DNA from: Armillaria gallica
Taxonomy: Eukaryota > Basidiomycota > Agaricomycetes > Agaricales > Physalacriaceae
Assembly (NCBI GenBank): GCA_037576215.1
Contig: JBANDB010000005.1
Location: 3,720,001 to 3,784,000, forward strand
Direction of reading: 5' to 3'
Length of the DNA: 64,000 bases
Shown one piece after another: positions 1 through 55,590 of the stretch. Numbering within the stretch: position 1 is the stretch's first letter; each line of letters opens with the position of its first letter. The position numbers and the translations under genes are program-made. The notes under the pieces were generated by a model. The model had not been told where the DNA came from. It ran no database searches and saw nothing but the letters and a program-made list of their open reading frames with translations.

Positions 1-7
1 CAGATCC

Positions 8-1443
8 ATGGTCCATAATCCATGTGATAATCGCTGCAAGAAGGCTGATGGTTGCTGTTCAAAAAACTTTCCAAAAGACTTCAATGAGCACACTGAGTTC
101 ACCACTGATGGATATCCCAATTTGGCACATCCTAACAATGGTCATGAGTATGTTAAAATGCATGGTCAAACCTATACTGTCTATACCAACCATGATATTG
201 TCCCATATAATCCTTATCTCAGTGCAAAATATAACTGTCACATCAATGTGGAGGTTTGTGTTTCTGTCAAGGCCATCAAATATATTTATAAATACATTTA
301 CAAGGGCTATGACAGGACTACATTAGAGGTTCAGGATCATGATGAGATCAAGAAGTTTCTGGATGCATGCTATATCTCTGCTATTAAATCATACTGGGGA
401 ATCTTTTCATTTTGGCTACATCAGAAGGAGCCAAATGTTGTCTGTCTTCAGGTCTATCTCCCTGATAAATAGCTTATCACATATGATGAGAATGACAGTC
501 CAGAAGAGGTGTTAGCAGCTGCAGAGAAAAAGACAACTACTCTGTTACAATGGTTTGAGCTCAATAAGAGAGATTCAAATGCATGCCGATATCTATATCA
601 GGAGACTCCTGCTCACTATACCTGGAACAAGAGAAAATGAAATCCATGCCAAAGATATAATACTATTGGTATTACTATTGGCTGAATGTATCAAGCTGCC
701 TCCTTATCTGGTGAACAATTCTATCTGCAGCTTCTTTTGACTGCTGTTGCCAGTGCTCAATCCTTCCAACACCTATGCACTATCAACAATGTGGAGTGTG
801 CTACTTTCAAGGAGGCATGCATTACTATGGGATTGCTGGAAAATGATAATGAATGGAGACAATGCTTACAGGAGGCAGCTATTATGCAGTCAGGAGCACA
901 GTTGTGATTACTATTTGTGACCCTTCTTCTCTTCTGCCAGCCAGCAAAGCTAGATAAGCTGTGGGAGGAGTTCAAGGAGAACATTTGTAATGATTTGGCA
1001 TATAAGTTCTGCCAACATGATGTTCCAAATCCAACAGATGCTTAGCTTTATGATTTTGGTCTCCATCTTATCAATAAGCTTCTTCAATCTCATGGTCATT
1101 GTCTCTCTGAGTGGACCAAGATGCCAGCCTCTATCATGGACTGGGCTGCTTATGAAGAGAATCCTCTTCTGGCTGCACAGCTGGCCTATGATATCCCATC
1201 TCTATAGTAATTAGTTGCTAACAATCTTCAAAAACATTCAATGAAGAGCAGAAGACTGCTTATAATAGTGTGTTTGACTGTGCTATGAATGAATGAGGGA
1301 AATTTGTATTTTTGCATAGTGCTGGAGGTGGTGGAAAGACTTTTGTATGCAATACTATTGCTGCTGCTGTTTGTGCCGAAGGAAAGATTGCATTTACCTG
1401 TGCCTCCTCTGGTATATCAGCAATTCTCTTAGTTGGAGGGCAT
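8..1443 (+). pseudogene. Helitron Rep/helicase, part before L1
   Basis: The first 154 codons are open and match the Rep region of copy 2, including the KYIYKYIYKG stretch that corresponds to the two-tyrosine motif. Downstream the reading frame is broken by stops: at about 906 copy 1 has TGA where copy 2 has CGA (Arg), and at about 1045 it has TAG where copy 2 has CAG. The helicase begins near 1315 with an intact Walker A motif, AGGGGKT, which copy 2 has lost. It breaks off at the L1 insertion inside the segment ending ILLVGG. It cannot make a functional protein. Confidence 0.85.
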
Positions 1444-3320
1444 TGTTGAGCTTCATGGTGTGCACCAGTGAAACTAAGAGCAGCCTAGCATGAATGACAC
1501 ACTACACCTACACTCAATCCCACTAACACACACACACTAATCTCTAATAAGTGCAGAGGGGAGCAAGGAATTTAATTCTACTTGTGCACCAACAGTATCT
1601 CAACAAATCTCAAGAGCTCTCTCTCAATGGCCTGACACAACATGAAGTAACCAGCAATATCTCAAGTTCTCTTTGTTTCTCCTCTGAAGCTTTTTACAAG
1701 AGAGCATGATGAACCATGCAACCCTCAAGGCAAAGACTTTTTATAATTTATACAAATGGACACACAGATCCACAAAAATGACACAGTCTGCACAGTGAGC
1801 TTACTAAGTATGAATCGTAGCTAGGTCCAACTGTGCACGACTTCGCCTTCTTCTTAGCTCATGAAACCTGAGTCCCAACTGGTCATGATAAAAGTCCATT
1901 CAATGAGCTTGCTAGTACAAAGTGCCACTAGGTCCAACTGTGCACACCTTCACCTTGCTCTAGTCTGCTAAACCTGAATCCTGACTCATCACAAATGAGG
2001 CCCTCGGCACTCTCAAACAAAACACAATAAACCCTCAAACAAACAGGTCTTGCACACAGCAAGCTCACTAAGTAACAAGGCACCACTAGAGTTCTTTCAG
2101 CCAGCACGCACCTACTACACCTTGTGCAGCTATCACAGAGCAGCCCAATCTGGCCAATTCCCACATGAAACCCTCAATTCTCTCTTACACTGCACCAGAA
2201 ATAGAACAGAGCTTCTCTCAGATGTAACCAAGTATACTCTCAAGGCTGGTGCAGCTTCACTGCCTCTGAATCTCTTATTTATCTCAAGTAAACTGAAGTT
2301 TATTATCCAAAATGTTTCTCTGATTCTATTTCTCTGCGAGCTTGCTATGATGCACAAGCTTGGAAGCCAACTAATGACTCTCTCACCAAAATACAGTCTC
2401 TCAGCACTTGTCTGTCACAATTTCCAAGGCTAGCAACTAGTAGGCTCACAAGGCAGGAGACCCACAGATTCTGAGCTAATCCTTTTCAATGCAACTCAAG
2501 CCATTCGCACTGTGCCTTAGCAGAGAAGAGGGCAAATAGTAACTTAAATTGTACACTGGCTAGCTGAACTACTTATATACTATGAGTGAAAGGTGATTAC
2601 AAACAGTCCATGAGTAAGGTAAATAGTCTAGATCTTTCGATGCATTTCTATGGTTTTCGATGTCAGTCCTCCGCAGCTGCAGTATTCCTTGGCAGGTGAG
2701 TCAGACTGTCTCTGATTGGTCTCTTCAAGGTGTACCGATGACTGTGTATGTCAAAAGTCACCTCCATGGGCTTAGGACCTTAGCAACTAATGATTAAGCC
2801 CATGGCATCTCTCTTCCAGAGCTATTTTCTGGTGGACAGCTCCTTTCTTAGGCATATTAGCCCTCGGGTCTTTCAGATTCCTAGCAATCTTGCTAATCTC
2901 TCAGCTGAAACCCTTGTCTTAGGCCTGCCTCATGATATCTCTCCATTTCCTGCCTTGTATGAGGTTATCTCCAGATTTTCAGGCACTATGCTTCTTTCAT
3001 TAAGCGAGCACATGGCTATCCTCATCATTATGTCGTGATCCAACTCTAAGTTCATCCTACTGATGCGTGCACAGGTCAATCTTATTGAAAGGAGTGAGCT
3101 TGCTAATTGGCCTTTTTGTCAAGCCTGCCATTCAGGTACAGTGCTGTGACCAAGTCCTTGGTTAACTCTGTTGTTTCCATTGACATACTGTGACATTGCT
3201 TCAGTAACCTTGCTTAGAATAGGTATCTGCTTAGCAAGCTCGCTAAGTATAGCCTGTAAGCTAATGCTTAAACATGCCCAATCACAAATTTACATAAGTA
3301 GCCACACCATGGGCATGACA
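1444..3320 (+). repeat. Solo LTR L1 with 4-bp target duplication GCAT
   Basis: An 1877-bp block interrupts the helicase frame that is continuous in Helitron copy 2 (apart from L5). It starts TGTTGAGCTTCATGGTGTG and ends CACACCATGGGCATGACA, so the ends are TG..CA with an imperfect inverted repeat sharing CATGGTGTG. GCAT flanks it directly on both sides (1440-1443 and 3321-3324), matching the uninterrupted target. It has no gag or pol. Inside, a segment starting CTAGGTCCAACTGTGCAC recurs about 107 bp apart (1821 and 1928), and an AGCAAGCTC..CTAAGTA word appears at least three times. The strand is arbitrary. Confidence 0.82.
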
Positions 3321-3324
3321 GCAT

Positions 3325-4546
3325 ACCAGCCACAGCACCTTCAAAATTCCAATTCCCTCATGTGATGATACAACATGCAGCATTTGCAGAGGAACTCACT
3401 TAGCTGAACTTCTCTCATCATTTGGGATGAGGTTCCTATGCAGAACTGACATGATATTGAGACTGTTGATTGTACTCTTCGTGATGTCTGCAATAAGGAT
3501 GTTCCTTTTGGTGGAAAAACTGTACTTTTTGGTGGTATGTGTGTTTATTCTGAGTTACTATAGATTGTCCTTTCTGATTATTTATTTTAAGAGACTTTTG
3601 TCAGACATTACCAGTTGTTTCATGAGGATCATGGGAGCAGATTGTTGCAGCTTCATTTTGCCATTCACCTTTATGGCCTCACATTGAAGTCATTCATTTA
3701 AAGAAAAACATGTGCCTGGATCAGACTCCTGAAAATGTAGAGTTTGCCCATTGGCTACTTACTGTTGGTGCAGGTGAAGGACTTATTGATGATCATACTA
3801 TCACTCTTCCTGCTTCTATACATCTGGCCAACAATTCACTCTCTGAACTCATTAAATATATCTATCCAAACATTCAAGCTGGCCACTTCCAAGACCACTT
3901 CTTTTTAGAACGAACAATTCTCTCTGGATGCAATGATGATATTGATGAAATCAATCAACAGGTTCTGGATATGTTTCCAGGACAAGAGACAGTTTATTGG
4001 AGTACAGACAAGACAATAGAGGAAGAGTTGGATGATGCTGCTACTCTTTATCCAGTGGAGTTTCTGCAAAATTTCAATGCCTCTGGATTGCCACATGCAA
4101 AGCTGGCTCTCAAAGTTGGATGTCCTCTTATGCTTCTCCACAATCTGGATCCAGCAAATGGCCTATGCAATGGGACATGGATGATTCTCACACATTTCTA
4201 TCCTCATGTATTAGAATGTTGTCTTCTCAGTGGTAACAATGCAGGCAAGGCTGTTTTCATCCCACACATCACAATCAATGCAGATACAGCTGAACTTCCT
4301 ATTGCATTTTCACATTGCCAATTTCCAGTCAGGTTGGCTTTTGTAATGACAATCAACAAGTCTCAAAGACAGTCAGTTACTTATGTTGGATTAGATTTAT
4401 GTACTCCTGTTTTTTCTCATGGACAACTCTATGTAGCACTTAGCCATTGCACTTCTGGACAATGGATTCGAGTTCTCTTTCCAGATACAGAAAAAGGTAC
4501 AAATACTTTGAATATTGTATACCCTGAGGCTCTATTATCTTCATAA
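3325..4546 (+). pseudogene. Helitron helicase C-terminal part
   Basis: This continues the helicase after L1. It includes WDEVPMQN (Walker B region), then a candidate intron near 3537-3595 (GTATGT..AG) that restores the frame into GDFCQTLPVV, as in copy 2. From 3710 a 278-codon open frame covers the SF1/Pif1-type C-terminal motifs, including NKSQ and YVGLDL..QLYVALSHCTS, and ends at TAA 4544-4546. The conserved arginine of the usual ALSRCTS motif reads His here, a CG to CA change. Confidence 0.85.
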
Positions 4547-4703
4547 TACATATTTGTTTCTGAACTAATAACTGACACTCTCAAGTAATAAGCTGGGTTT
4601 GAGACAGGCCCCAACAAGCTAAAGTCTCGTGACATAGTCAGGTTGCCAGGACCTGAGGTATGAGGGTCCAGCAATCGTGATGAAGACATGGGGCATAGGC
4701 TTG

Positions 4704-5485
4704 TTATCTATCTGTCTCTCTTTGCTATATTTAGGTAATCATTTCCTAGGATCAAAAATCACCTTGAGCCATTAGCCATCACAGCAAACATCACACAGGC
4801 TGCATTTTGTCATCTTGACCAAGTTCTTCTGACATTTGGTGGACTATATATGCATTATCACACTGCATTGCAGGTCCCAGAGGATCAGGATGTAAAGTGG
4901 GCCATCCTTGAGAGTTTGGATCATTGCTGGGCAAACTCTAACCAAGAGGTGTTCATTGCAGCTGTCATTCTCAACCTGTTTTTTAAGAAAAAGCTGTTTC
5001 ATATGTCCCTCCCCTTTATGAACCTGGCTGGAATATTCTCTCTTCTAAGCTGCCTTTACAAACACTTCTTGCAGAAAGATGCACCACTGGAGTTGCTCCA
5101 TGATGTGAAGGATTACCTTGGTGGGAAGGGATTATTTTCATCTCTTAGTCAGATGGCTGAAACAATTGCCACTACAGCAACCAAGGTAAATTGACTATAA
5201 TTATGCTCCAGATGCAATTCTAATTTTATTTGACAGCTAAATGAAAGCCTCAACCCTCTGGAAGTTTATGATGGGCACACCTTGATCAGTGTCAATGATG
5301 TGATGGCATCAACTCCACCTCTCATTCATCTTGCATGTCATATCCTTTCCATCACCACCAACTCAGTGTCTTGTGAGTGGCTATTTAGTACACTTGGTAA
5401 CACCCTCACCAAACTTTGCAATCACCTCAGCACCCAAACACTTGTCTCCTTAGCAGAGTTGAAGATGTACATAAAAGATCCCTGA
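4704..5485 (+). pseudogene. hAT transposase C-terminal remnant (hAT-1)
   Basis: Directly after the Helitron 3' end, an open frame from 4749 reads LEPLAITANITQAAFCHLDQ and on to QEVFIAAVILN, typical of the RNase H-fold region of fungal hAT transposases. A 51-bp intron (5186-5236, GTAAAT..GACAG) joins it to an exon ending at TGA 5483-5485. That exon holds the hAT dimerisation signature ILSITTNSVSCEWLFS, where the family usually has SCERLFS (Arg lost here). The N-terminal half is absent, so Helitron copy 1 either inserted into or lies against this gene. It is not the same hAT family as the minus-strand gene at 18.8-29.8 kb. Confidence 0.8.
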
Positions 5486-9272: not shown

Positions 9273-9482
9273 TCCTGCTTGTGCTCTCCAGCCCTTCTAC
9301 CTAGTCCATGTCTGTTTTCATTCAGTATCAGCCCTCCCCAGGATCGTGCTATATCCCTGCCTTATAGTAGAAATCCTCTGCAACTGTTGTTGTCATCCTG
9401 TTCAGCGTTGGCATCCTGGTCATCAGTTGTTCATTTCGTGGAGCCTCCCGTGTGCAGATGGTGGTTGATGTCAGACCCCTGG

Positions 9483-11125
9483 TGATGTGCTCGGTAACGG
9501 GCAGTGCGCAAATGCAACAAGTGTCTAGATCGTCAATCTAGATACTAAATCACACACAATCACCAATGTTTAAGTTTGAGGGTGAGTACGGTAGAAGCAC
9601 TTGTGGTGTACTTAGATATCGATAATCAATTGGGTTTGTTTCAAAACAACTTCGATTCAAATCTAGAAGTGTTTACACGAGATACACTAATCGTGATAGC
9701 GAGGTATATGGATGTGGGGGTTTGTAAGGTATAATTTGAGTGGCTTAGACTCAAAACGACTTCGTCTAGGAGAGCTGGTAAGGCTTTAACTAGACAAGCT
9801 TTAACAATTGAACAATCAAAGACCTAGAGGTCTACAAAGAGCGTAATTGCTCTGGAGTACATGAACTCAATTACAACACAAGCACACGCACTTGCAACAA
9901 AGAACCGAAGTTCTACAAAGAGTACACAGACTCTACAAAGAACACACAGGTCCTGGCTTCAAGTATGAGACTTGCAAATAGTACACAGACTCTAGAGTAC
10001 ACTGACTCGTTAACTGTTCGAACTTAAAGCGTTCTAGGGCTTATTTCACTTCAACTAGGCAACGTCTTCAGTCTGTGGTCGACTTAGCATGTCCAGATCA
10101 CTTTAGTCAGTGAGGGAGCACGAGGCCTTTGGATGCGGAGCAGTTCAATTAACTAGCAAGGCGCAAACACGGGGATGACTCTTCTTCCTACTTAGTTCTT
10201 CTAGATTACTTATAGCCGCCCTTTTGGGGTAAACTTGGTAAACTTAATTCACTTCAGTCGAGGATATGCAATTAAAACCAGTGATTGATTAGGTAGCTAT
10301 AAGGCTACTAGCACAAACGTGAGGGAATGCTTTCCTGCCGTTATGCGTCTAGTCGCTGCTAATTTATACAATTTCTAGTCTAGGTATAGGAGCTTGTATC
10401 TAAAAGTAATTATGGTACGAGCTTTGGGTATCAATACAAACGACGAGTAATTAATTTACAAGGATTGTGCCATTCTGAGATTTCTATTCAGTTAGGCAGA
10501 ATGACTAGCAGTTATTCTATTGCCGAGGAGTGCCCTAATGGTCTGTAGGAACTCCTTGCTTCTCCATGCCTTGCCACGTGGATTCCTATTCAATACTACG
10601 AATTGCACAGTATTTCGAGGATGTAACCACCGATTGTGATTGATCGTCGGACCGAGATTGTATTTGCTTTGATCACTGCGTGATATTTAGCTATCTCAGC
10701 GCCAAGCGTCGGTTATTCAGTTATCCCAAGTTTATTCGTGTTCTAGACTAAGTTCATTTCACATTGTGAACTGTTGTGGACTTAGCGATTCTCTTCTAGG
10801 TTCATTCAGGTCATTGAGATGACGAGTAATCTAGTACTTCTGTGTTCTGCTTTAGGTTTGTAACCCATCTCGATGTGTCCCTTGGTTCCGACTGTAACTA
10901 GTCTTTGTTTTGGGCAGGGAATAGCATTCAGTGTTGAAGGCTTGTAGAATTGACTCGTCTAGATGTCGCTTCTAAGTCCGTTCTGATACTGTATTGCTCA
11001 CTATCTTATGTAGTATACTAGCTATCAGTGTAAAGCCTTCACTATAGCTCTCTGTACTGCTTGTAGACTGCATTATTTGATAGAAAATTGCAAAATCTAC
11101 GGGTAGCCTGATACCAAGCGTATCA
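9483..11125 (+). repeat. Solo LTR L2, CpG-rich (young)
   Basis: This 1643-bp block starts TGATGTGCTCGGTAACGGGC and ends GATACCAAGCGTATCA, giving TG..CA ends with an imperfect inverted repeat. Flanks are CTGG (9479-9482) and CCGG (11126-11129), compatible with a CCGG duplication that has lost one CpG. It has no coding capacity. An internal motif CTACAAAGAG..ACAC..GACTC is repeated several times around 9830-10010. It is the CpG-retaining sister of L3 (16939-18577). The strand is arbitrary but is the same orientation as L3. Confidence 0.78.
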
Positions 11126-11129
11126 CCGG

Positions 11130-11560
11130 ATGTATTCTAAAATGTTGTAGTGTATGGAGTTTGTGTGCAGCAGCAATTGGCATGGATGTTGATGTGGGGG
11201 GTGCTCGGTCAGTTGGGATGGGGATGGTGCCATATTTGTGGCCATGGCAGCAGTCAGCAGGGGTCATCATCAGCATTGGACTTGCTGGCATCGTCATCAT
11301 TGCCATGTATGCATGGATCGTAGCACTGCCCCAAGTGATGGCTTATGCGGGGGATGGGGGGAGGATAAAAGTAATCTGGGGCTCTTGGGGCCACCACATT
11401 TGTGCCAGATGCATAAAATGGACCTAAAAAGAAGAGTAAGTAACGGAATAATAAAATACACACCTTTTCATGTCCTGTGAAACAGGCATGGGGGAGTGGA
11501 CTATGCACTATTAAAGGTGGTAAAAGACAAGAATGGAATGGCATAGCCACTCAATTGGTT
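11130..11560 (-). other. Possible coding remnant upstream of copy A, weak
   Basis: On the minus strand a 98-codon frame (11254-11550) contains a proline-rich stretch (VVAPRAPDYFYPPPIP). It sits on the same strand as the copy A remnant on the other side of L2, so it may be its 5' part. An overlapping plus-strand ORF also exists, and I cannot decide which is real, if either. Confidence 0.25.
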
Positions 11561-12041
11561 CTTGGTGCATCGGACTGTGGCAAGCGATGCATGCATCCTC
11601 CACTCTATTCTCCCACTCTGAAGCCTGAAGATTTAGTGACATATACATATACTCTTTTATACATTCTACATACCATAAGCTTGAACAAAATGATTGTCTT
11701 CTAGTTTATTTAGCACAATTATAATGATATTCCGAGTTTGAAAGACAATTGTTACCATAAAAGGAGTGTTGTTTGTCACTGTTGAATTCTAAGGTAAAAC
11801 TTAAAATGCAGGATCCTGGGTCAAAATGCAGCGTAAAAGAACAAATCCTCATAAACTCGGACTTGTAACCTCCAATGGAAATTGCAGTCACTGCAATGTC
11901 AGTACAGAAACGCTATCCCCACCTGATCGCCCAACGAAAATCAACCTGATCTCATCCTTGGCATCCAAGTCAACTTGTGCCTACCATGCTCTGCAATTCA
12001 CCCAGCTGATCCTCCAATGGAAATCGATTCCAATCGTTGCT
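11561..12041. other. Gap, nothing recognised
   Basis: AT-moderate sequence with a few short ORFs and no recognisable motif. No repeat was noticed here. Confidence 0.4.
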
Positions 12042-12427
12042 AGCCATAGTACTGTACCATTTGAATCACTTCAAATGGCTTGTGACATGTGACATATTTG
12101 TACCTTACTGAATGATTGAATACAGGGCTAGTGACAGTGACATTCATATAAAATCCGAATAATATTGCTATTAAAGTACCATTTACTTAAATATTCTAGT
12201 CATGAAACAACTAGCAAGAAGCAAGAAATGAGGTAAAACTGGCATATTGGAGAAATTTTTCCATTTTCAGCCATTTTTCATCGAATTTGGCACCTTTTTG
12301 AGTTTGTGACATCAAACCCTGCTGAATGAGACCCTTGAGATGCATGACACATGGCCATTTTATGAATACAAATGCACCCTTTGTGACATGTGACATTCAA
12401 AGTGATTCAAATGGTACAATAATGGCT
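12042..12427. mobile_element. MITE-like 386-bp inverted-repeat element
   Basis: The left end AGCCATAGTACTGTACCATT, continuing TGAATCACTT, is found inverted at the right end (AAGTGATTCAAATGGTACAA, then TAATGGCT), an imperfect terminal repeat of about 32 bp. Both arms are followed inward by TGTGACATGTGACAT or its equivalent. There is no ORF inside. No target duplication is evident. It lies within the candidate 6.8-kb element. Confidence 0.6.
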
Positions 12428-12599
12428 CCAGCAAGATCAAAAACCAGAATGGGATCCAGACCTTTTATCTTTCCTGATGCACAGTTCACTCAATGCATAG
12501 GGGAGTTTTGGTCTCCTGCCTGATAAGCAGTCATTTTAGTACTGTGGGGTTCACTGCTCATTCTTCATCCTAGGCTTGGTTTTGCTAAAGACTGACTGA

Positions 12600-13310
12600 T
12601 TGCACCATGTGAGGGAGCATTACATTGAATGTTGAAGGACTTTCTGGTGATCAGGTATCTTTCAATTCCCTTTATTTCACTTCCTTACAACGTCAATTAG
12701 CCTTCATTGCCTTTCCTGGGGACCCAAACTCACAGCATGACTACACCAAACACTCTCTTTAAAGGAAGAGTTGGACGAAATGGGGATCGTGCGGGTGTTC
12801 ATGATCAAGACCAGGTAAATGGTATGTTTGAACTACCTCTTTACTTGTTCCTCTGGACGAACTCTGGCCCAGATTATCTCTATCTTGAAAATTGGTGTTT
12901 ACAAGGTCCTCAGTGTGCTCGCTGACAAATATCTTGTGTGGAGTGGTGTCAAACAGAAAGTAAGGAAATGAGTTCTGATCCCAGTGCATGTAATATCATT
13001 GACCTGTGAATTGAATGCTAGCATTGTCTATCAGCGGTGGCATCCCTAGCTGGTTAAGAAGGCCCCGCCTTGACTAGAGTACTTTCTTTTTCCTTGTTGC
13101 TGTGCTAATTCCTTCAGAAGGTTCAAATTTTCATGGCAAGGGTTGCAATCTCAATGACGGCTCTAGGAAAGACTATGCTGAGCCTAATGATGGTACATAC
13201 ACCTCAAGTACCATAGCACACATGCATCTCCAAGACTTTGGCTTTGTACTGAACCATACAAAGCTGGTGTCACCATACAGGAATACAGTCTGAGTAAGGT
13301 GCTCAGAGGC
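12600..13310 (+). pseudogene. Unknown multi-exon coding remnant
   Basis: Three coding-like segments are separated by GT..AG gaps: a short segment ending at 12654; a segment after an acceptor near 12700 reading AFIAFPGDPNSQHDYTKHS to GVHDQDQ, with a donor GTAAAT at about 12817; and a segment at 13111-13292 reading EGSNFHGKGCNLNDGSRKDY..EPNDG. The peptides look like real protein (balanced composition, short introns), but I do not recognise the family and stops are present (TGA at 13291). Confidence 0.4.
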
Positions 13311-14260
13311 TAGCACAAATATAAAGCAGCAGCCTCGAGTCTTTGCCAGATAACCATCTGCTGCCTATTTCTTATCTTGCTTACTTATGTTCCCTTCTCC
13401 AAAGTAGGGTGGACATCTAACGATAAGATATGCTCAGTGAACTGCTAGCCTAGGTGCGACCAAGCATCTTGGCTTCACTATTCTCCAGCTAACAAATTCC
13501 ATGTAGCGATGTCTTCTTCCAGCTTGTCGCTGACAAGAACCACCCTCTCAGCTGATGCTACCCATTGCAGTATGTCAATACCTGTCCCCACCAGTAACCC
13601 TGCCAATCTTCCCTCACGGTTCCTCAAATGGAGACCACCCTCAATCGCTGCAAGCCATGGCAATCATATCCTGGAACAATGTCATGTACCAGGCAAGATT
13701 GAATATTGGACAATATCTGAGCATGTAGGGCCATGCGCATTGATGGTGGCCCACCCTGGGGGTCAATGATGGTGGCAATAGCCTATGTAGTGGGAAGGGG
13801 TGCTCATTTGGGCAGGTAAAGGTAGGAAGAGTGGGAGAGTGTAACCAGAATGACGATGATCCAATGGTGTACTGCGCTATACTTGCTGTTAGCATCTATA
13901 TGCTGCCACCACTCTCAATACCATGGCAAGTGGTTTACAATTTTATCTACAATCTCAACTACTTTTGTTAAATGAATTATCCTTGCATACATGGTTATTA
14001 TGTATTGGTGTAATCATTAGTTGTTCCTCCATTTTCCCTACACTCTGTCTGAGTCTTGGTTTAAATCCTGCTACATATTTTTGTATATGAACATTTCCTC
14101 ACCAACTGTTTAGTATTCTTTTGAGAGAAGCTTGTCTCATCCAAGCATGGTGTACCATATGTTGCATCCAGTCAGAGTATGCACATAATTCTGCTACATG
14201 TATGTTAAAGAAGACCTAAATAAGATGCGCTCAGGGTGAACTTCTTGTTCGGACCCATGC
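13311..14260. other. Low-information stretch with weak minus-strand ORFs
   Basis: Minus-strand frames at 13478-13663 and 13641-13895 give peptides such as FNLAWYMTLFQDMIAMA that could be a decayed gene, but the plus strand is open in the same place. From about 13.9 to 14.2 kb I see nothing. Confidence 0.25.
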
Positions 14261-14434
14261 CTGCCATGCTCGCAGTGGCCCACTTGGCTAAGTGCTAATC
14301 TCCTTGTGTGCAGGTGGCTCCCTTGTAGGTGCCAATGACGTTATTGTTGCTCAGTGATGAAGTTTTGCGTTTCATGTTTTAGCGTTCAGCGCCCTGATAC
14401 CATGTCTCTTATCTTGAACAAGATTCCCTGCTGT

Positions 14435-15487
14435 TCACCTCAAGCATTGTTGGAAGCTGATGTCCTTGATATGGATGGTAGGCAGTTGACTTCTTTGTAC
14501 CCATGATATTATGATCCCTTGTATTTTCTGGAAATCCATGGTGATGTATTTTCCACGATCTCTGGTGCACCAGCTTGGCTGGAACAGTGCTTCATGTTTT
14601 ATTCCGGTTGGAAGTGTGCGAGTGTGCATTTCATTGGAAATGTGTTCATTGTCACAAGCATGTGAATCACAATATCTGGGCTTCAGATTCATGCTGCCCA
14701 GTGTCGAGTTAATGTCTGTTACACTTGAAAAGCCAAATACCATTTTATTTTCTCCCAGACTTGGAACCCTGCCTCCGGTGTTGCTCACCACCTGACTCTA
14801 GAGTTGTTGAATTCAAAGACTTGGCATTTATTGATGATGAGGTTGTGAACCTACCTTTTTCTCCTGATGCTCTCCATTGGGTGACGGGTCTGAGATGGGT
14901 TTTGCCTGTTTGTCTTCACCGCTGACAAGTATTTTGTTATATGAGAGCTGTTTTCAAGTTTTTTCTTCATTCTCCTTCTGCCTCCAACAAAACTGATCTG
15001 TGTCGCATCCCAGTATGTCTTCAAGTTCAGTCTTTATTTATTGTCTGTACTGATGAATGCGACTAGTATATTTCAGGATACTTCTTCCAAACCGAGCTTT
15101 TGAAAGTCAAGTGTGTATTTAACATCCGATTGTCGTTCCCTACTGAATACATTTTCCTATTTATAGTTACACGTTAGTTGCTCAGCAACAATGCTTCGTG
15201 TTCCCCTTTCTTACGCTTGCCACTTAGCACCTCGATGTTCATGTCTTGGATCCTCCACCAGCATCATTGTTGTCTACCATATTATTGGAGGAGAATGTCT
15301 CTGGTGTGAACAATAGGCAGCTCACTGGTTCGTATTCATGATAATATGATAATTTGTATTTTTCAGAATTTATCCTGCTGACTTCCATCGATTTGTGGTG
15401 TCTCGATGTGGTTGGAATAGTGCTGCATGTTTTATTTAGGGGATCAGACAATGATGTCCCAGGTCTTAGAAATATAGTGAAGCTCAT
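14435..15487 (-). repeat. Two diverged tandem copies of an unknown ORF
   Basis: A segment at about 14440-14620 and another at about 15260-15450 are homologous at DNA level (shared runs such as GGCAGTTGACTTC/GGCAGCTCACTGG, CATGATATTATGAT/CATGATAATATGAT and AGTGCTTCATGTTTTATT/AGTGCTGCATGTTTTATT). They are offset by about 820 bp. The longest frames are on the minus strand (14435-14791, 118 codons; 15239-15487, 82 codons), and both carry related residues. The product is not recognised. Either the gene is duplicated or each copy belongs to a longer repeat. Confidence 0.45.
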
Positions 15488-15689
15488 ACTGGAATGATTG
15501 GATAATGCACACTTGACCCAGTCAATGGCAACAGGCTCACTGTCTCTTTTGCAAAAGATGGTACCAATTTAAACGAGTAGTATATCCTTCCTTGGGGCTG
15601 ATTTCAGTTCACATAAATGGTACCCTCATGTACATATTTCGAATTCATGTCCCTGTTTGATTCCTATGATTCGTCAGTCAGTACAGAAG

Positions 15690-16272
15690 GAACCAGATAA
15701 GTAAAAGGGGAAGAATCTGGGGCCAGCACGAAGCTGCCACTACTGGATGAGTATCTGGAGGAGAGAAAAGCACATCCAAAGTGCTATTTTGGTTTCAAAA
15801 AGTCGCAGGCAACTGCACTCCAATCACAGATGACCCCACTGATGGTACACAACCCTGAAGAATTAAGTTCTTCAGGTATTCCCACATTGCAGTCTATTAA
15901 TGTACCAGACACTGCTTCAATGAGTGTGGCTGGTGATCTGGATCCTATTCAAGATCCTCTCTTTGATATCACTGATGACCTTTAATGGAGAGTGGATGAG
16001 GATGCTCTTGATGACTCAGAGCTGGCTTGGGACCTTTACAATGATCAGGTGGAAATGGACACTGACATTGACTCAGAGCTGCTTGATCTAATACCCCTTG
16101 CATCACTGTTCAATTTTGACTCTCGAGAGTAGATCATGGTTCATGAACATAGTGCCACAAAAAGCTTGAAAGAGAAACTGGAGCTGTATGAATTAGCAGA
16201 TCTTGATGTGGAGGGAGATCCTGATGAATTTTCAATAGATATTGATTCCACTCTACAGTCAATAATGTAACT
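15690..16272 (+). pseudogene. Acidic unknown ORF with two stops
   Basis: A single frame reads LPLLDEYLEERKAHPKCYFG through a Ser/Thr-rich middle into acidic repeats (DEDALDDSELAWDL; DTDIDSELLDLIPL) and ends DSTLQSIM before TAA at about 16269. It is broken by TAA near 15984 and TAG near 16131. The acidic, Asp/Ser-rich C-terminus resembles activation-like tails of transposon-linked proteins, but there is no recognised domain. Its neighbour at 14.4-15.5 kb may belong to the same element. Confidence 0.4.
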
Positions 16273-16491
16273 AATGGCTAGTCATACAAATTACAATATT
16301 GCTATATTGTACTACTCATCAAGAGCCAGCTGTATTGCGGAACATCTGCTGTAGTGGCTGACATGTGGCTGTGCTTGACTGCCTTGTGGCTGTATGAGTA
16401 AAGTTGCCATCATTTGGTGACCATGACAGTGGTGACTTCGCAACAGTTGTAACTTTGGCGACTGTTCCATGACACACACAACACTGATTCA

Positions 16492-16934
16492 ATGTGTTAC
16501 AAACAACTCCAGGGTGTGCCTGTCTTCATCATCTTGAATGCTGGACTCATATTGAAGCAATTGCCATTTGCAGTGAAAGTGGAGATGGCAATAAACAACT
16601 TCAAGGAGAGTGTGTTTGTCAGCAATGTTGTCAGAGCATTCAGTCCCATTCTGTTGTGGCTATCTCTACATCTTTCTTCTCTGCTTCTCTCAAAATGGTG
16701 TGCTGCAATGTTGCACTTGCTCAGTGCTTGCATTTTGTTGTTTCCAAGGACCCAAGTTCTGCTGCTCCTGCTACTTCACTTTTTCTTGAATGGTGGTGTA
16801 CTGCAAAAGGCATGCTTGACTTGGTGTTTGCATTTTGTTGGTTCCATTCCACACTGGACCCTGCTATTCCTGCTGCCATGTGGTTCTTCAAAATTGTGTG
16901 CTGCAACTAAAGCACTGCATGGTTTCCCTAATAC
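16492..16934 (+). other. ORF-dense segment with internal ~95-bp duplication
   Basis: Two plus-strand frames and two minus-strand frames are open together, so an ORF here proves little. The segment contains two diverged copies of a unit about 95 bp long, each with a TTGCATTTTGTTG core followed by a CTGCT-rich stretch (about 16695-16790 and 16790-16885). It is truncated on the right by L3. Confidence 0.35.
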
Positions 16935-16938
16935 CTGG

Positions 16939-18577
16939 TGATGTGCTTGGTAACAGGCAGTGCACAAATGCAACAAGTGTCTAGATCATCAATCTAGATA
17001 CTAAATCACACACATACACACAATCACCAATGTTAAGTTTGAGGGTGAGTATGGTAAAAGCACTCATGGTGTACTTAGATATCAATAATCAATTGAGTTT
17101 GCTTCAAAACAACTTCAATTCAAGTCTAGAAGTGTTTACATAAGATACTCTAATCGTGATAGCAAGGTATATGAATGTGGGGAGTTTGTAAGGTGTAATT
17201 TGAGTGGTTTAGACTCAAAATAACTTCATCTAGGAGAGCTGATAAGGCTTTAACTAGAGAAGCTTTAACAAATCAAACAATCAAAGACCTAGAGGTCTAC
17301 AAAGAGTGTACTTGCTTTGGAGTACACAGACTCGATTACAACACAAGCACATGCACTTGTGACAAAGAACCAAAGTTCTACAAAGAGTACACTAACTCTA
17401 CAAAGAACTCACAGGTCCTGGCTTCAAGTACAAGACTTGCAAAGAGTACACTGACTCATTAACTGTTCAAACTTAAAGAGTTCTAGGACTTATTTCACTT
17501 CAACTAGGCAATGTCTTTGGTCTGTGGTCAACTTAGTATGTTTAGATCACTTTAGTTGGTGAGAGAGCACAAGGCCTTTGTATGTGGAGCAGTTCAATTA
17601 ACTAGCAAGATACAAACATAGGGATAACTCTTCTTCCTACTTAGTTCTTCTAGATTACTTGTAGCTGTTCTTTTATGATTGACTTGGTAAACTTAATTCA
17701 CTTCAGTCAAGGATATGCACTTAAAACCAGTGATTGATTAGGTAGCTATAAGGCTACTAGCACAAATGTAGGGGAATGCTTTCCTGCCATTATGTGTCTA
17801 GTCACTGCTAATTTATATGATTCCTAGCCTAGGTACAGGAGCTTGTATCTAAAAGTAACTATGGTACAAGCTTTGGGTATAAATACAAATGATGAGTAAT
17901 TAATTTACAAGGATTGTGCTATTCCAAGGTTTCTATTCAGTTGAATGGAATGACTAGTGGTCATTCTATTATCAAAGAGTGCCCTAATGGTCTGCAGGAA
18001 CTCCTTGCTTCTCCTTCATGCCTTGCTACATAGATTCTATTCAATACTGCAGCTTGTGTGGTATTTCAAAGATGTAACCACTGATTGTGATTGATTGTCA
18101 GACCAAGATTGTATTGCTTCAATCACTGCACAATCTTAGTTAGCTATCTCAGTACCAAGCATCAGTTATTCAGTTATTCCAGGTTTATTCATGTTCTAGA
18201 CTAAGTTCATTTCACAGTGTGGATTGTTGTGGACTTAGCAATTCTTTTCTAGATTCATTCAAGTTGTCAAGATGACAAGTAATCTAGTTCTTCTGTTTTC
18301 TGCTTTTAGTTTGCAACCCATCTTGATGTGTCCTCTGGTTCCAACTGTAGATAGTCTTGTTTTGGACAGGGAATAGTGTCCTATACTGAAGGCTTATAGA
18401 GTTGACTTGTCTAGATGTTGCTTCTAAGTCTGTTCTAGTATTGCCTGGCTCACTATCTTATGTAGTCCTTTAGCTATCAGTGTAAAGCCTTCACTATGGC
18501 TCTTAGTACCACTTGTAGACTGTGTTATTTGATAGAAAATTGCAAAATCTATGGGTAGCCTGATACCAAGTGTATCA
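16939..18577 (+). repeat. Solo LTR L3, CpG-poor sister of L2
   Basis: This 1639-bp repeat is collinear with L2 from end to end. In the first 75 bp the two copies differ at four positions, all of them CG in L2 and TG or CA here. The ends are TGATGTGC..GTATCA. Flanks are CTGG (16935-16938) and CCAG (18578-18581), both one transition from CCGG. It is non-coding. It lies immediately next to the 3' side of the minus-strand hAT gene. Confidence 0.8.
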
Positions 18578-18801
18578 CCAGATGCATCTGTGGACAGACC
18601 CAGCTCCAGGTCTTGAGCAACACCTTGAAATGACACCTGCAGACCCACAGGTCTGAGTCAGGAAACAGATCCAATTGTAGTTACCAATGGTAGGTCCATC
18701 GATGGTTGACCTGCCCAAGACTTGTGGAAACTTACACAAATTTATGATGAAGAAATAAAATACAATTGACAAAAAGAAAAGTATAGTATTGGTTAATTAA
18801 A

Positions 18802-21264: not shown

Positions 21265-22856
21265 ATGGTGCAAGCTTGAATTGCAACTGCATGTACATTA
21301 GTGAAGAGTTTAGTATTGGTGATCATGTCTTCTAATTGACTAATTATCTCATCAAACATTGGAATTACCTTGTGTATAAGAGGCATTCCTGACTGAGACA
21401 TTTGAAAAGTAGCTGATGCAAGCATCTGATCTAATATTAAAACAGTGAAAATAACAGAAGAAAAATACATACAAGAAATATTGGTTCAAGCTGTACCAGG
21501 AACATTCATTTGTCATCATTGAGTTTGAACTTGCATAGTTTTTTTGTTATCCTCATTCCATTTATTGATATGGCAGAATGCATTAAGGGCAGGCTGAAGT
21601 TTGAGAGCATGCAGTAAAATGGTTCCCTTCAATATAGCATTGCATCTTAGATCACCATCCTTAGCCTCAAGCTCATTGAGATCATCCAATACCATGAGGA
21701 GTTCATTGAGCATTGCCTCTTATTTACTGAAACTTAATTCTTCTAGCAATTTCTGCTCCTCAGCATCCAGTTCATTGTCATTGTTGTCATCCAGCCAAGA
21801 ATTGTTGTCATCATTGTGGAAACCTTGGTTGGTGGTTTTGGCCTTCTTGATAAAGTAATGAAAGATGGCCTAGATAATAATTATAAGAAGCCACACTGCA
21901 AAAAGATGAAGTCTACCTTGTTTGCAAGGTCAAATATATGTCCTGCACAAAGCATACAGGTTTTTGGACCCACAATGTGAGTACTTGGAAGTTTTCCAGA
22001 ACCCTTCAGAGAGCAAGTCATGATTACATTGTTTGATGTGTTATCACTAGGAAGTGATAAAAGCTTGTCAATGATCCCATAGTTGTGAAGTGTTTGCAGA
22101 TGGCCTTGGCAAGATTGGCCCCAGTGTGAGATTTTTTCATACTGATGATAGTCAGTGATATATAGTGAAGCAAAGAAATCACTCACTGCACCATGTCTAA
22201 TGTGAGAACTTGCATCTTTCCATCAGCAACCCAAACAGTGACTAGGTTGAGTAACAAAAGTTTTAAGGTGCAGACCAACTGTCCTGCACAACATGAATTC
22301 TTCCTCTTATGTTCTATAGAAAACAGCATTGTAAATCAGTATTATAGCTAGTTGATCAATCAGTTGATGTACCTAAAGAAGCTCTGCCACCCACTTCTTG
22401 ACCAGCATATAGACATTTTTGACATCATGAGATAGAGTATCTGCCAATGGAATTTGAACATCTTTGTTAAACATACACAATATACCATGATATTCCTCAT
22501 ACTCAGTGAAGGCATAAGGGACATGATGCCTTGCAGCAAGCTTTACCTCCTTTACATGAAGATGACCAAAACTATATGTTGAGCCTTGCACAAAGGGTAG
22601 CAGGGACAATTGCATGAGTGTAGACTCATTGTCATCACCACTAATAGGAGGTTTGCAGTGCTGTTATCATAAAATGCATGATAGACTTTGATAGATTTGT
22701 CACTATAAAGCAGTCAGAACAAGAATGGGCTGTTTGGAGAACTCACATACTGTTTGCAAGTAAAGACTTGCTACTATTTGTCCATCTTGGCATTCCAGGA
22801 AACCACAACATCAGCAAGATAATGTTCATAAGCAGAGACCAACCATTTATGTCACA
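21265..22856 (-). pseudogene. hAT transposase hAT-2, N-terminal and central part
   Basis: Read on the minus strand after the Helitron: a Trp/Lys/Cys-containing segment (WNAKMDK..FTCKQ) that may be a BED-type zinc finger, then KLAARHHVPYAFTEYEEYHG to KNVYMLVKKWVAELL, an intron near 22300-22380, and the RNase H-fold core with HTGANLAKAICKHF, GIIDKLLSLPSDNTSNNVIM and CAGHIFDLANKV. In hAT proteins the Asp in SDN is a catalytic-core residue, and it is retained. An acidic linker and PLIHKVIPMFDEIISQ follow, up to the L4 insertion. Stops and small frameshifts make it non-functional. Confidence 0.8.
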
Positions 22857-23016
22857 CAAGCCTATGCCCCGTGTCTTTGTCATGATTGCCGGACCCTCAT
22901 ACCTCGGGTCCTGGCAACCTGACTACGACACAGGACTTCGGCTTGTTGGGGCCCGCCCCAAACCCGGCTTATTACTTGGGAGTGTCAGTTATTAGTTCAG
23001 AAACAAATATGTATTA

Positions 23017-24316
23017 TCAATGTAATAGAGCCTCAGGGTATATAATATTCAAAGTATTTGTACCTTTTTTTGTATCTGGAAAGAGAACTCAAATCCGTTG
23101 CCAGAAGTGCAACAGCTAAGTGCTACATACAGTTGTCCATGAGAAAAAACAGGAGTACATAAATCTAATCCAACATAAGTAACTGACTATCCTTGAGACT
23201 TGTTGATTGTCATTACAAAAGCCAACCTGACTGGAAATTGGCGACGTGAAAATGCAATAGGAAGTTCAGCTGTATCTGCATTGATTGTGATGCATGGGAT
23301 GAAAACAGCCTTGCCTGCATTGTTACCACTGAGAAGACAACATTCTAATACATGAGGACGGAAACATGTGAGAATCATCCGTGTCCCATTGCATAGGCCA
23401 TTTGCTGGATCCAGATTGCGGAGAAGCATAAGAGGACATCCAACTTTGAGAGCCAGCTTTGCACGTGGCAATCCAGAGACATTGAAATTTTGCAGAAACT
23501 TCACTGGATAAAGAGTAGCAGCATCATCCAACTCTTCCTCTATTGTCTTGTCTGTACTCCAATAAACTGTCTCTTGTCCTGGAAACATATCCAGAACCTG
23601 TTGATTGATTTCATCAATATCATCATTGCATCCAGAGAGAATTGTTCGTTCTAAAAAGAAGTGGTCTTGGAAGTGGCCAGCTTGAATGTTTGGATAGATA
23701 TATTTAATGAGTTCAGAGAGTGAATTGTTGGCCAGATGTATAGAAGCAGGAAGAGTGATGGTATGATCATCAATAAGTCCTTCACCTGCACCAACAGTAA
23801 GTAGCCAATGGGCAAACTCTACATTTTTAGGAGTCTGATCCAGGCACATGTTTTTCTTTAAATGAATGACTTCAATGTGAGGCCATAAAGGTGAATGGCA
23901 AAATGAAGCTGCAACAATCTGCTCCCATGATCCTCATGAAACAACTGGTAATGTCTGACAAAAGTCTCTTAAAATAAATAATCAGAAAGGACAATCTATA
24001 GTAACTCAGAATAAACACACATACCACCAAAAAGTACAGTTTTTCCACCAAAAGGAACATCCTTATTGCAGACATCATGAAGAGTACAATCAACAGTCTC
24101 AATATCATGTTGGTTCTGCATAGGAACTTCATCCCAAATGATGAGAGAAGTTCTACAAAGAAGTTCAGCTAAGTGAGTCCCTCTACAAATGCTGCATGTT
24201 GTATCATCACGTGAGGGAATTGGAATTTTGAAGGTGCTGTGGCTTGTACGCCCTCCAACTAAGAGAATTGCTGATATACCAGAGGAGGCACAGGTCAATG
24301 CAATCTTTCCTTCAGC
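23017..24316 (-). pseudogene. Helitron helicase, part after L5
   Basis: Minus-strand frame: SSGISAILLVGGRTSHSTF, then SLIIWDEVPMQNQHDIE (Walker B) and GGKTVLFGG. A candidate intron (GTATGT..AAGAG, about 58 bp) joins in frame to DFCQTLPVVS, a stop TGA, and GSWEQIVAA. The 220-codon ORF 23187-23849 carries the C-terminal helicase domain to NKSQG, where TAG replaces a likely CAG. After it, [20 protein letters not shown] can still be read. The number of lesions is small: this copy died recently compared with copy 1. Confidence 0.85.
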
Positions 24317-24320
24317 ACGA

Positions 24321-25643
24321 TGATGAACCTATTGACTCCTGCGGGCAGAAAACACAAGACCTGTAACGGCGAGTGTAGTCAAGCACAGAATCTGAAGGCA
24401 GGTTTTAGCGAGTCTAGTCTTGCACCTCCGTGCGATGACTGTAGCTTCCTGGTGGTGTAGCGAAGTATTGCTACGCTTTGTTATGATTCTCTGAAGGCTG
24501 TTCAGAGGCTCAAAGTATGTACGCGAACTTTCCTGGAAGGGAAAAGATACGTAAACGTGGATGTATGCTGAGCGGGGGTGACCTAGATGCGGCGCGAACT
24601 ATGTGGTGTCGGAATCCTGGCTACGGTTCCGGTAGAATCTATTTTCCTATGCTCACGTACTTTCTTTAGAGAAACGCAGAGATGGAGCTGGCTTATCTAG
24701 AGAAACTCGAATTAGTATCGTTCCTAACTTATAGGAACAGTATGCTGTTGGTGTTAGAGACTAAAGTTCGGAATCCTAGCTACGGATTACCCTTTGAAGT
24801 CTTCAGGTATGCGAATTTATGACAGGAGGATGACAAACAAGGTAGTCTTTATATGATACCCTTGCTTGTGTTTTGGACGAGAGGATGTGAATCAAGTTAT
24901 TTAACACTGGGTAGCTAGCGAGTTTTGGAGAAACTTCACCAAGTGTTATATCTCTTAAGAACGTAGAGATATTAACTTTAATTCGCATGTATTGGGTGGT
25001 ATGTGTGGTGTATGTATCCTCTATGGAGAACTGTCCTTTTTCTATCTACAGGCCGTTATCTTTTATACTACAGAACTGTACTTGCTAAGTAAGCAAACTT
25101 TTGCCTTGGCTTGATAACCGCAGTACATGATTTGTGAGCGTAGCGAACTATTTGTAACCGTAGTTCACTATACCGTGTGCTACTCTACTGTGCATACTTA
25201 TTAAAAGTTCGCGTAGCCTAATAAAGCTACGGAAGGTTTACTAATTTACTTACTACTTACTCAGCCACAGTTAATGGCTCACTAATCTCTACTATATTTC
25301 TAAGCTGTAAAGGCATATCCATATGGCCTCTTGAGAATCCGTAGCTATGCATAGCCTACGCGTAGTTAAACCGCGTGATCGTATGGCTCTGTCCACGTGC
25401 AAAGGCCCAGAATAATGACGCGTGTCTAATTTACTGCGGAAGGATTGGCAATCAATGTGCCTTGAGGCAAAATGACTCATAGATATCGGAGTGAAAGTTC
25501 ACGTGGAGTGGGAAATTTAATATGATTCGACCTGTGCCGGACTTGCAACGTTTGGTTTAGTGAAAGGCCGCATAAGGGAGATAGGCGATAAATTGTAAGT
25601 GGTGTTTGCGATTTCAGAGCGCACAGAGCCTTGAGGCTCATCA
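24321..25643 (+). repeat. Solo LTR L5, CpG-rich, inside Helitron
   Basis: A 1323-bp insertion with TG..CA ends (TGATGAACCTATTGACTCC..TTGAGGCTCATCA) and inverted terminal repeat TGATGARCCT. ACGA flanks it exactly on both sides (24317-24320 and 25644-25647), and copy 1 of the Helitron provides the empty site at about 1370. It has no internal coding region, so it is a solo LTR left by recombination or a non-autonomous form. It retains many CpG that its sister L4 has lost, and is the last event in the hAT, Helitron, LTR nest. Confidence 0.85.
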
Positions 25644-25647
25644 ACGA

Positions 25648-27857
25648 ACAGCAGCAGCAATAGTATTGCACACAAAAGTCTTTTCACCACCTTCAGCACT
25701 ATGCAGAAATACCAATTTCCCTTGTTCATTTATAGCAGAGTCAAGCACAGTATTATAAGCAGTCTTTTGCTCTTCATTGAATGTTTGGAGATTGTTAGCA
25801 ACTAATTGCTGCAGAGATGGGATATCATAGGCCAGCTGTGCAGCCAGAAGAGGATTATCTTCATAAGCAGCCCAGTCCATGATAGAGGCTGGCATCTTGG
25901 TCCACTCAGAGAGACGATGACCATGAGATTGAAGAAGCTTATTGATAAGATGGAGACCAAAATCATAGAGCTGAGCATCTGTTGGATTTGGAACATCACA
26001 TTGGCGGAGCTTATGTGCCAAATCATCACCAATGTTCTCCTTGAACTCTTCCCACAGCTCATCTGGCTTTGCTGGCTGGCAGAAGAGAAGAAGGGTTATA
26101 AATAGTGATCGCAACTGTGCCCCTGACTGCATAATAGCTGCCTCCTGTAAGCATTGTCTCCATTCATTATCATTTTCCAGCAATCCCATAGCAATGCATG
26201 CTTCTTTAAAAGTAGCACACTCCACATTGTTGACAGTGCGTAAGTGTTGGAAGGATTGAGCACTGGTAACAGCAGTCAAAAGAAGCTGCAGATAGAACCG
26301 CTCGCCAGATGAGGGGGCAGCTTGATACATTCGGCCAATGGTAACACCAATAGTTGTGTATCTTTGGCATGGATTCCAGTGTTTCTTGCTGCTGTTCCAG
26401 GTATAGTGGGCAGGAATGTCTTGATACAGATACTGATGTGCACTGGGATCTCTTTTGTTGAGATCAAACCATTGTAACAGAGTAGTTGTCTTTGCCTCTG
26501 CAGCTGCTAACACCTCTTCTGGACTGTCATTCTCATCATATGTAATAAGCTGTTCATCAGGGAGATGGACCTGAAGACGGACAACATTTGGCTCCTCCTG
26601 ATGTAGCCGAAATGAAAAGATTCTCCAGCATGATTCAATAGCAGAGATATAGCATGCATCCAGAAACTCCTTAATCTCATCATGATCCTGAACCTCTAAT
26701 GTAGTCCTGTCATGGCCCTTGTAGATGTATTTATGGATATATTTGATGGCCTTGACAGAAACACAAACCTCCACATTGATGTGACAGTTATATTTTGCAC
26801 TGAGATAAGGATTGTATGGGACAATATCACAGTTGGTATAGACAGTACGGGTTTCACCACGTATTTTAACATACTCACGACCATTGTTAGGATGTGCCAA
26901 ATTGGGATATCCATCAGTGGTGAATTCAGTATGCTCATTGAAGTCTTTTGGAAAGTTTTTTGAACAGTGACCATTGGGCTTCTTGCAGCAATGATCACAT
27001 GGACCATGGACCATGCATCTGGTGACAATCTCATAAAGAATTGGTTGGGTAACAGGATCAGGAATCTGAGCACATGAGACTGAATCAGCATCAGCAGGTG
27101 TGCAAATCTTGTCTTCAGGATTCAGAAAAATCAAAAGATGCATATGAGGGAGTCCACACTTCTGAAATTTAATAGTATGCACTATAGCCCTGACTTTTCC
27201 AAATATTCCACCCTTCTTGATTTCATCCAGTAAGGCCTCCTTCTTCAACTGGAAGACCCTGGCCACAATATCTGGTCGATCCTCCACTTTCTGATCTGGT
27301 CCATCTGTATGCTTTAGAGCTTCAACAATTTCTGGCCACTGTGGGTTTGCTGTCATTGTAAGAAAGATATCTGGCTTCTGCAAAGCTCTACAAATTGCCA
27401 TAGAATCCTGATACAGCTGATACATTGCACGGGGACTGCCAGTATGTGATGAAGGTAGGACAATACGCTGGCCAGAGTCTTGCAATCCATCAGCATTAGT
27501 AGCTGCATCCACCACTCCCTTATACAGATCTGCATGGATAGTTTTCTGATTGTGTCGAACCCAGTTGAGATTACTTTGTTCAATTGAGGCCCATGCATCT
27601 ACAATATATTGTTGGTACAGCCGTCCTTCTCTATACAATGGTGCATTTGGTTCAAATATTGGACGATCCTGTAGGTGGTAAACATGATACATATGCTGAG
27701 TAATCTTTTTCTGTTCTCTATGTTCACTTGTTTCAGTTTCTTCCAGAAGCATATGTATATTCCAACCCAATTCTCCATGTGGAAAAAGGAGAACATAATG
27801 AAGAGGTTGATAACTTGGATGAAGTTGGCTAATGCGTTTGAGAGAATGATCATGCAT
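25648..27857 (-). CDS. Helitron Rep/helicase, long ORF (interrupted)
   Basis: About 735 codons are open on the minus strand. In order: RISQLHPSYQPLHYVLLFPH typical of Helitron proteins; the Rep HxH motif in GLPHMHLLIFL (about residue 238); a Cys/His cluster (CDHCCKK..HCSKNF); the two-tyrosine stretch KYIHKYIYKG (about residue 372); and the start of the helicase. The Walker A here reads AEGGEKT: two glycines are changed to Glu by G-to-A transitions, while copy 1 keeps AGGGGKT, so helicase activity is probably lost. The ORF runs into L5, which supplies an artificial end. Upstream it is separated from the next ORF by a single TGA at 27873. Confidence 0.87.
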
Positions 27858-27872
27858 ACATAAAACAATATC

Positions 27873-31640: not shown

Positions 31641-31689
31641 TATACATGTTCCTTCAGTGAATGCAACATGTCAATCACAATGCATGTCT

Positions 31690-32465: not shown

Positions 32466-32704
32466 AAGCATACTGATTTGAGCATGCACCTGGGGGCATG
32501 TGGGAAGGAAGGAGGGATCCCAAGGGTTATATTGACTGCAATATGATGTGTTAGAGTTCTTATGACAGACAAGCTTTTAGAATACAAGGACTTGAAATGT
32601 GGAATAGACTTCGTGAAATACACTCTGATAGAATAGCCAATTCAAATATGAAAACAAGAACTACAATAGCGAGGGACAAGCGAGGGATAGCAAATTTCAA
32701 AACA

Positions 32705-55383: not shown

Positions 55384-55590
55384 CTTCTAGTCCATTGCTA
55401 TAATTTCTAGAGCATTGCTATGATTACCAGTCCTTCCACATGATTTCTAGTCCCTCCCCACATTTTACAGTCCATCCCCATGATTTCTAGCACGTTGCTA
55501 TGATTTCTATTCCCTCCCCATGATTACTCATCCTCCCCCACGATTTCTAGAGCATCACAATGGTTTCTAAAGCATTGCTATGGTTTCTAG
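55384..55590 (+). repeat. Minisatellite, about ten units of ~20 bp
   Basis: Units follow the pattern TTTCTAGTCCNTYSCYATGA, alternating between an AGCATTGCTATGA type and an AGTCCCTCCCCATGA type. Ten or so units can be counted between 55384 and 55590, 19-22 bp each, imperfect but in phase. This is not a CRISPR array: units are adjacent, with no spacers. Confidence 0.75.

Follow-up and report, generated by a model that had tools for sequence, protein, structure and literature searches.

Loss of CpG from fungal repeats is known already, and the change of repeat CpGs has been ascribed to deamination after a methylation in which a Masc2-like gene takes part (PMC4352252). Retrotransposons have also captured methyltransferases repeatedly, which connects retroelements with CpG methylation in another way (PMC5890265). 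As to target sites, the errantiviruses of Drosophila, in the ZAM subgroup, make 4-bp duplications of a palindromic CG-containing target, which by the order of the sentence is CGCG for ZAM (PMC5408687, PMC3276498); in the 4-bp duplications of plant long terminal repeat (LTR) retrotransposons the two central bases are GC-rich (Jedlicka et al. 2019, PMC6911290); and TCN3 of Cryptococcus makes 5-bp duplications of variable sequence (PMC12810828). Here we describe a 64,000-nucleotide stretch of the Armillaria gallica genome (the window; contig JBANDB010000005.1, C5:3720001-3784000), analysed together with the whole searched genome of 86.05 Mb in 28 contigs. The window carries two copies, L2 and L3, of one repeated unit. 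Very probably they are independent insertions of one LTR-retrotransposon family, with CpGs decaying through methylation of the repeats and an integrase that cuts at N-CG-N.

L2 and L3 are collinear from end to end, as an earlier sequence-only reading of the window had stated, and 86% identical. Only one of the 55 CpG sites of L2 stands as CG in L3, the others being CA (29), TG (19), TA (5) and AG (1), and L2 has a ratio of observed to expected CpG (o/e) of 0.79 as against 0.036 for L3. Counted per strand-C, a C of L2 is replaced by T in L3 in 58/110 cases in the CG context, 17/98 in CHG and 46/469 in CHH. The 112 columns with CpG in either copy contain 59 transitions and 1 transversion, and the remaining 1511 columns contain 112 transitions and 23 transversions, i.e. 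0.53 transitions per column at CpG vs 0.074 elsewhere. This strong over-representation of CpG among transitions, obtained by the tabulation by context that the sequence-only reading had proposed, confirms that the CpG-targeted decay between L2 and L3 is real. At each of the four differing sites reported in the first 75 bp (L2 positions 10, 17, 26 and 50), a CG of L2 corresponds to TG or CA in L3. No other substitution was found there, in line with the statement that non-CpG sites are unchanged, but an 8-bp insertion of L3 at 69/70 had been overlooked. The decay is targeted to CpG, as proposed, but not to the exclusion of ordinary drift, which exists too as judged by the transitions and transversions outside CpG columns. 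Part of this apparent non-CpG signal comes from CpGs lost in both copies, since 20 mirror pairs (TG/CA in 9, CA/TG in 11) are observed between L2 and L3; the control dinucleotide swaps printed (12) gave 0-4 in 11 cases, and the remaining one, CG/TA (5), is itself a CpG loss.

The family was represented by 55 loci from two DNA searches with L2 and L3 as queries (the two copies of the window included), which are the best matches to these queries and not a random sample. Sites with CG in at least 3 copies were regarded as CpG-capable, so that sites lost in nearly all copies are left out; the 55-copy alignment has 92 such site pairs. Retention is graded, from 0.63 (L002) and 0.59 (L2, 54/92) down to 0.02 (L3, 2/91). 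Over 5021 cells the states are CG 1592, TG 1726, CA 1640 and TA 63, the loss being about equal on the two strands. Changes private to one copy, at columns where the commonest base occurs in at least 80% of copies, were counted in the 1383 alignment columns without CG in any of the 55 copies, and number 4 in L2 and 36 in L3 (the highest of all). L2 is thus fairly young and L3 old, and the two are insertions of different age. L042 and L048 (C3:7350631-7353955) are near-identical inverted L2-type copies with a common 104-bp spacer and 2 differences in 1598 columns.

Both copies have their own 4-bp duplications (Table 1), and for L2 a paralogous empty site is present in the window, to which the joined flanks of L2 align through the junction (64.6% over 920 bp, E 4e-90). 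This shows L2 to be a single insertion on its own, and together with the duplications it means that L2 and L3 are not two ends of one element. The view of them as the same LTR before and after CpG loss has to be given up, as they are separate insertions and L2 has itself lost CpGs. Further paralogous empty sites were found (L003, L020, L023, L026 and L059, among others); for L3 none was found.

The 4-mers flanking the family follow a rule which the sequence-only reading, though it saw the CpG decay, did not detect. The full N-CG-N pattern, with matching outer bases and a CG, TG or CA centre in both 4-mers, is found in 44/55 copies, compared with a mean of 0.14 and a maximum of 2 at 250 control offsets. 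Centres of this kind on both sides occur in 49/55 copies, and in the corresponding 98 duplication copies they are CG in 41, TG in 34 and CA in 23. The pair classes observed (and expected for independent decay) are CG/CG 8 (8.6), CG/TG 15 (14.2), CG/CA 10 (9.6), TG/CA 9 (8.0), TG/TG 5 (5.9) and CA/CA 2 (2.7). These classes fit independent decay from targets that were all CpG, with at most 11% otherwise: the maximum-likelihood share of non-CpG targets is 0 with an upper 95% bound of 0.11 (44 copies). As for the outer bases, the first one is A or C in 32/44 and the last one is A in just 3/44. The CpGs of the duplications are kept in 26/48 cases beside CpG-rich copies vs 15/50 beside decayed ones (Spearman 0.35, p 0.015). 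The flanks of the 12 most CpG-rich copies are also richer (mean o/e 0.54 vs 0.28 at the others), so that target choice, whether of methylated DNA or of DNA poor in CpG from the outset, and later change of the flank are not separable in this comparison. The genome yielded no other LTR family against which the rule could be checked as a negative control.

Table 1. Insertions of the window, their target-site duplications and the empty site of L2 (window positions).
Feature	Position	Strand	Remarks
L2, solo-LTR-like unit, TGATGTGC...GCGTATCA	9483..11125	+	1643 bp, 55 CpG
L2 left target-site duplication	9479..9482	+	CTGG, read as CpG-decayed CCGG
L2 right target-site duplication	11126..11129	+	CCGG
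L2 paralogous empty site, host repeat without L2	44545..45445	-	flanks meet at 44855
L3, older copy of the L2 family	16939..18577	+	1639 bp, 2 CpG left
L3 left target-site duplication	16935..16938	+	CTGG
L3 right target-site duplication	18578..18581	+	CCAG
Insertion TGATGAGC...GGTTCATCA in a Helitron copy	24321..25643	-	1323 bp; TCGT/TCGT; empty copy at 1-4704 has TTGT once
Insertion TGTTGAGC...GCATGACA in the other Helitron copy	1444..3320	+	1877 bp; GCAT/GCAT; empty copy has GCGT, CpG intact

The best reading of the decay is deamination of methylcytosine, with methylation as the probable cause. A methyltransferase search of the genome gave five loci (L031-L035), two of them apparently duplicates. 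L031 matches PDB chain 7r76, labelled 'DNA repair protein Rad8', with E 4.7e-79; we take this chain to be DNMT5 of Cryptococcus. L031 and L032, which has the same search score, are DNMT5-like, L035 is DNMT1-like and L033 is DNMT2-like; L034 matches DNA_methylase of Pfam, and the piece of it that was tested gave no match in PDB. Judged by these similarities, the predicted CpG methyltransferase genes of the genome comprise a DNMT1-like and a DNMT5-like kind. L031 (C9:3880866) and L032 (C18:67597) are equal in length, composition and score and both lie near contig ends, which corresponds either to a subtelomeric duplication or to redundant assembly. CpG o/e is 0.95-1.03 at the five methyltransferase loci and has a median of 0.27 in the 110 flanks of the family, 6 of which are above 0.8; the decay is thus seen outside the element in its flanks, but not at the methyltransferase loci sampled.

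L007 (C2:8003019) and L016 (C5:6417159) are segmental duplicates located ~60 kb from two contig ends, with an L2-type insertion and its flanks in common. Their divergence in CpG columns is 0.26 in the upstream flank, 0.26 in the element and 0.22 in the downstream flank, and in other columns 0.008, 0.006 and 0.010, respectively; per base, CpG positions of these loci diverge 23-41 times faster than others. Within the L2-type family the loss of CpG according to the 5' base is 0.399 for ACG, 0.375 for CCG, 0.318 for GCG and 0.295 for TCG, i.e. the TpCpG preference that was looked for is absent. The sequence-only reading had named 5-methylcytosine deamination or a process like repeat-induced point mutation (RIP); deamination fits the data, and a TCG-biased RIP is rejected since TCG is the least decayed context; a RIP-like process without context preference, though improbable, would agree with these losses.

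Two other insertions of the window are situated in Helitron copies (Table 1). These copies (1-4704, + strand; 22856-28886, - strand) have opposite orientation, consist of pieces 91-97% identical and contain a different insertion each; among the matches listed (120 of 1617) they have fungal as well as plant relatives. A further family was recognized from L061 (C18), an insertion nested in an L2-type copy. It is an LTR element of ~16.8 kb, two copies of which (C4:2534886-2551676 and C1:4946974-4930195, - strand) have paired ~1.69-kb LTRs with starts 15.1 kb apart, a stretch resembling a primer-binding site (PBS) after the 5' LTR and one resembling a polypurine tract (PPT), AGGGGGGA, before the 3' LTR. 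The duplications are ATGG/ACGG and GCGG/GCAG in the C4 and C1 copies and ACGA/ACGA in the nested one. An exact left-end pattern, with the first base of the preceding 4-mer other than T, gave 532 left ends; the right-end pattern occurs at 141 places. In the first 20 left ends listed the preceding 4-mer has a CG centre in 8 cases and a TG centre in 7. The other 5 follow GGGA or GAGA, as is expected for 3' LTRs from the stretch before them, and 3 of these have a left end on the same strand 15.0-15.1 kb upstream. The element at 24321-25643 and L061 may be related, as their starts are alike; hence the number of insert types under the rule is no less than three and may be four. When loci of more than 1000 bases were scanned for more pairs of empty and filled sites, no clear new family emerged. 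Two more features of the window are a 4.85-kb stretch (30862-35715) which is absent from the matching L060 flank and has no readable duplication, and a tandem array of 20/40/80-bp units (55385-55591).

Several observations weigh against the reading proposed here. At 11/55 junctions the full rule is not obtained: the match stops before an end in L039, L048 and L055, the centre is not a pyrimidine-purine step on one or both sides in L042, L044 and L053, and the outer bases differ around CG, TG or CA centres in L012, L028, L030, L037 and L052. Among the 15 L061-family insertions listed there are no CA centres at all, which is lopsided for a strand-symmetric decay. Between retention of CpG and private non-CpG changes the correlation is only weak (Spearman 0.29, p 0.03 for 55 copies; 0.25, p 0.07 after removal of L3), and the pairs L007/L016 and L042/L048 are not independent copies. 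The ends of L2 pair as inverted repeats at 15/20 positions, longer than is usual for an LTR. No full-length L2-type element with paired LTRs, PBS and PPT was found among the 100/118 left and 100/134 right ends listed. For the PBS-like stretch of the L061 family, in the form read in one copy, no host tRNA matches exactly. Finally, the scored positions of rve (150/671), RVT_1 (150/774) and RVT_2 (140/140) include no reverse transcriptase or integrase match inside three 15-kb intervals of this family, and an attempt to place the 16.8-kb elements in Copia or Gypsy by these positions gave no result.

With respect to the nature of the units, the 5'-TG...CA-3' ends and the short target duplication of the L2 type are both traits of LTRs. 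Since the ends listed form no consistent LTR pair, the units are filed only as solo-LTR-like, by analogy, and most likely they are solo LTRs. We give practically no credence to the idea that L2 and L3 themselves belong together as 5' and 3' LTR of a single element, one end of which was protected from methylation. Their same orientation at a distance of 5.8 kb and the outer 4-mers CTGG and CCAG, which would also fit a single duplication, are compatible with it, but the duplication and the precise empty site of L2 are not: the downstream flank of L2 continues the host repeat, by eye there is neither a purine tract before L3 nor a primer-site-like stretch after L2, and L3 has nine times as many private non-CpG changes as L2. 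The pair was rejected on the empty site. A more serious, though still unlikely, alternative is that the 1.65-kb units belong to the non-autonomous DNA transposons, have ~20-bp inverted ends and owe their movement to an integrase-like transposase with CpG as its cutting site. Besides the pairing of the ends, the spacing of the L2-type ends found by pattern search with up to 3 mismatches (118 left, 134 right) speaks in its favour: a right end from the list lies at 1.5-1.8 kb for 53 of the 100 listed left ends, other spacings occur for 18 (3.0-3.6 kb in 7), and for the remaining 29 no listed right end follows within 30 kb. On the other hand, the L061 family, which has similar TGATG...CATCA ends and NCGN duplications, possesses direct-repeat pairs with PPT-like and PBS-like stretches, and its 88 listed left ends on C1 form 11 same-strand pairs at 14-16 kb vs 3 opposite-strand ones. 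Moreover, in the single 3.3-kb form of the L2 type which was read in part (C18), a nested LTR of the L061 family accounts for the extra length; the idea that longer L2-type forms are autonomous copies was weighed on this one form.

The alternatives to slow deamination at an all-CpG target concern the process and the rule. A RIP-like process, in which repeats are recognized in the sexual cycle and their CpGs mutated in bursts instead of a slow loss of maintained methylcytosine, seems improbable. CpG-restricted mutation of repeats has been described in basidiomycetes, with a TpCpG bias in Microbotryum (PMC4352252), and both the large per-base ratio of CpG to non-CpG divergence and the weak link of CpG loss to non-CpG age would agree with such bursts. 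The low loss at TCG would not, nor would the graded retention, which has no all-or-none pattern; the flanks are CpG-poor as well, with a similar divergence ratio in the single duplicate tested (L007/L016), and the most decayed copy, L3, is also the oldest by non-CpG changes. It is very improbable, too, that the target is any of CG, TG and CA with no CpG-specific rule. TG and CA centres do make up 57/98 of the duplication copies today, but TG/TG and CA/CA pairs show no excess over decay from CG, and the likelihood estimate with its bound, given above, leaves little room for such targets.

The mechanism which we consider can be outlined as follows. Repeats of the host genome would be methylated at CpG, and after insertion the methylated CpGs would turn into TpG or CpA by deamination far faster than other mutations arise, so that CpG content should fall with the age of an insertion. 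The integrase of the element would cut the two strands with a 4-bp stagger around a CpG (N-CG-N, with mostly A or C as first base and rarely A as last); each insertion would then start with a CpG in both duplication copies, and these CpGs would decay like those inside the element. We infer that the CpG is probably read by the integrase itself. It is possible, but on the sequence data tentative and rather doubtful, that the integrases of a fungal LTR group read methylated CpG as the target, the silencing mark of the host being a landing signal. In that case the elements would settle in silenced repeats, and deamination would erase both their own CpGs and the supply of targets.

If the CpG rule is true, the choice of integration site is linked with the very dinucleotide which is methylated in the host and lost from it, and N-CG-N targets are the kind of site destroyed by CpG decay itself. 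Each duplication then offers a clock for its insertion, with two CpGs of known starting state, and the homing of a retroelement to silent chromatin becomes testable by offering oligonucleotides, methylated or not, to a single integrase. In the open-access literature, outside which most subscription papers lie, fungal LTR elements with a strict CpG target were not found to be reported. Reportedly, CpG methylation affects retroviral integration in vitro (Kitamura et al. 1992). The common point is that the choice of integration site is tied to CpG; here it takes the form of a near-absolute natural target rule.

As concerns the decay, the fungal repeats described in PMC4352252 resemble ours in C-to-T change at CpG, but the TpCpG bias of Microbotryum is missing here, and the loss reaches 53/55 CpGs between L2 and L3 and the target-site duplications as well. 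The ZAM-type errantiviruses share with the present family the probable LTR nature, the 4-bp duplication and a CG inside a palindromic target. Their LTR ends are AGT/AnT, in contrast to TG/CA here; moreover, in the present family only the central CG is near-fixed, and the host is a fungus, not Drosophila. In the plant 4-bp duplications (PMC6911290) the centre is a base preference in a logo, whereas the CpG of the present family is near-absolute.

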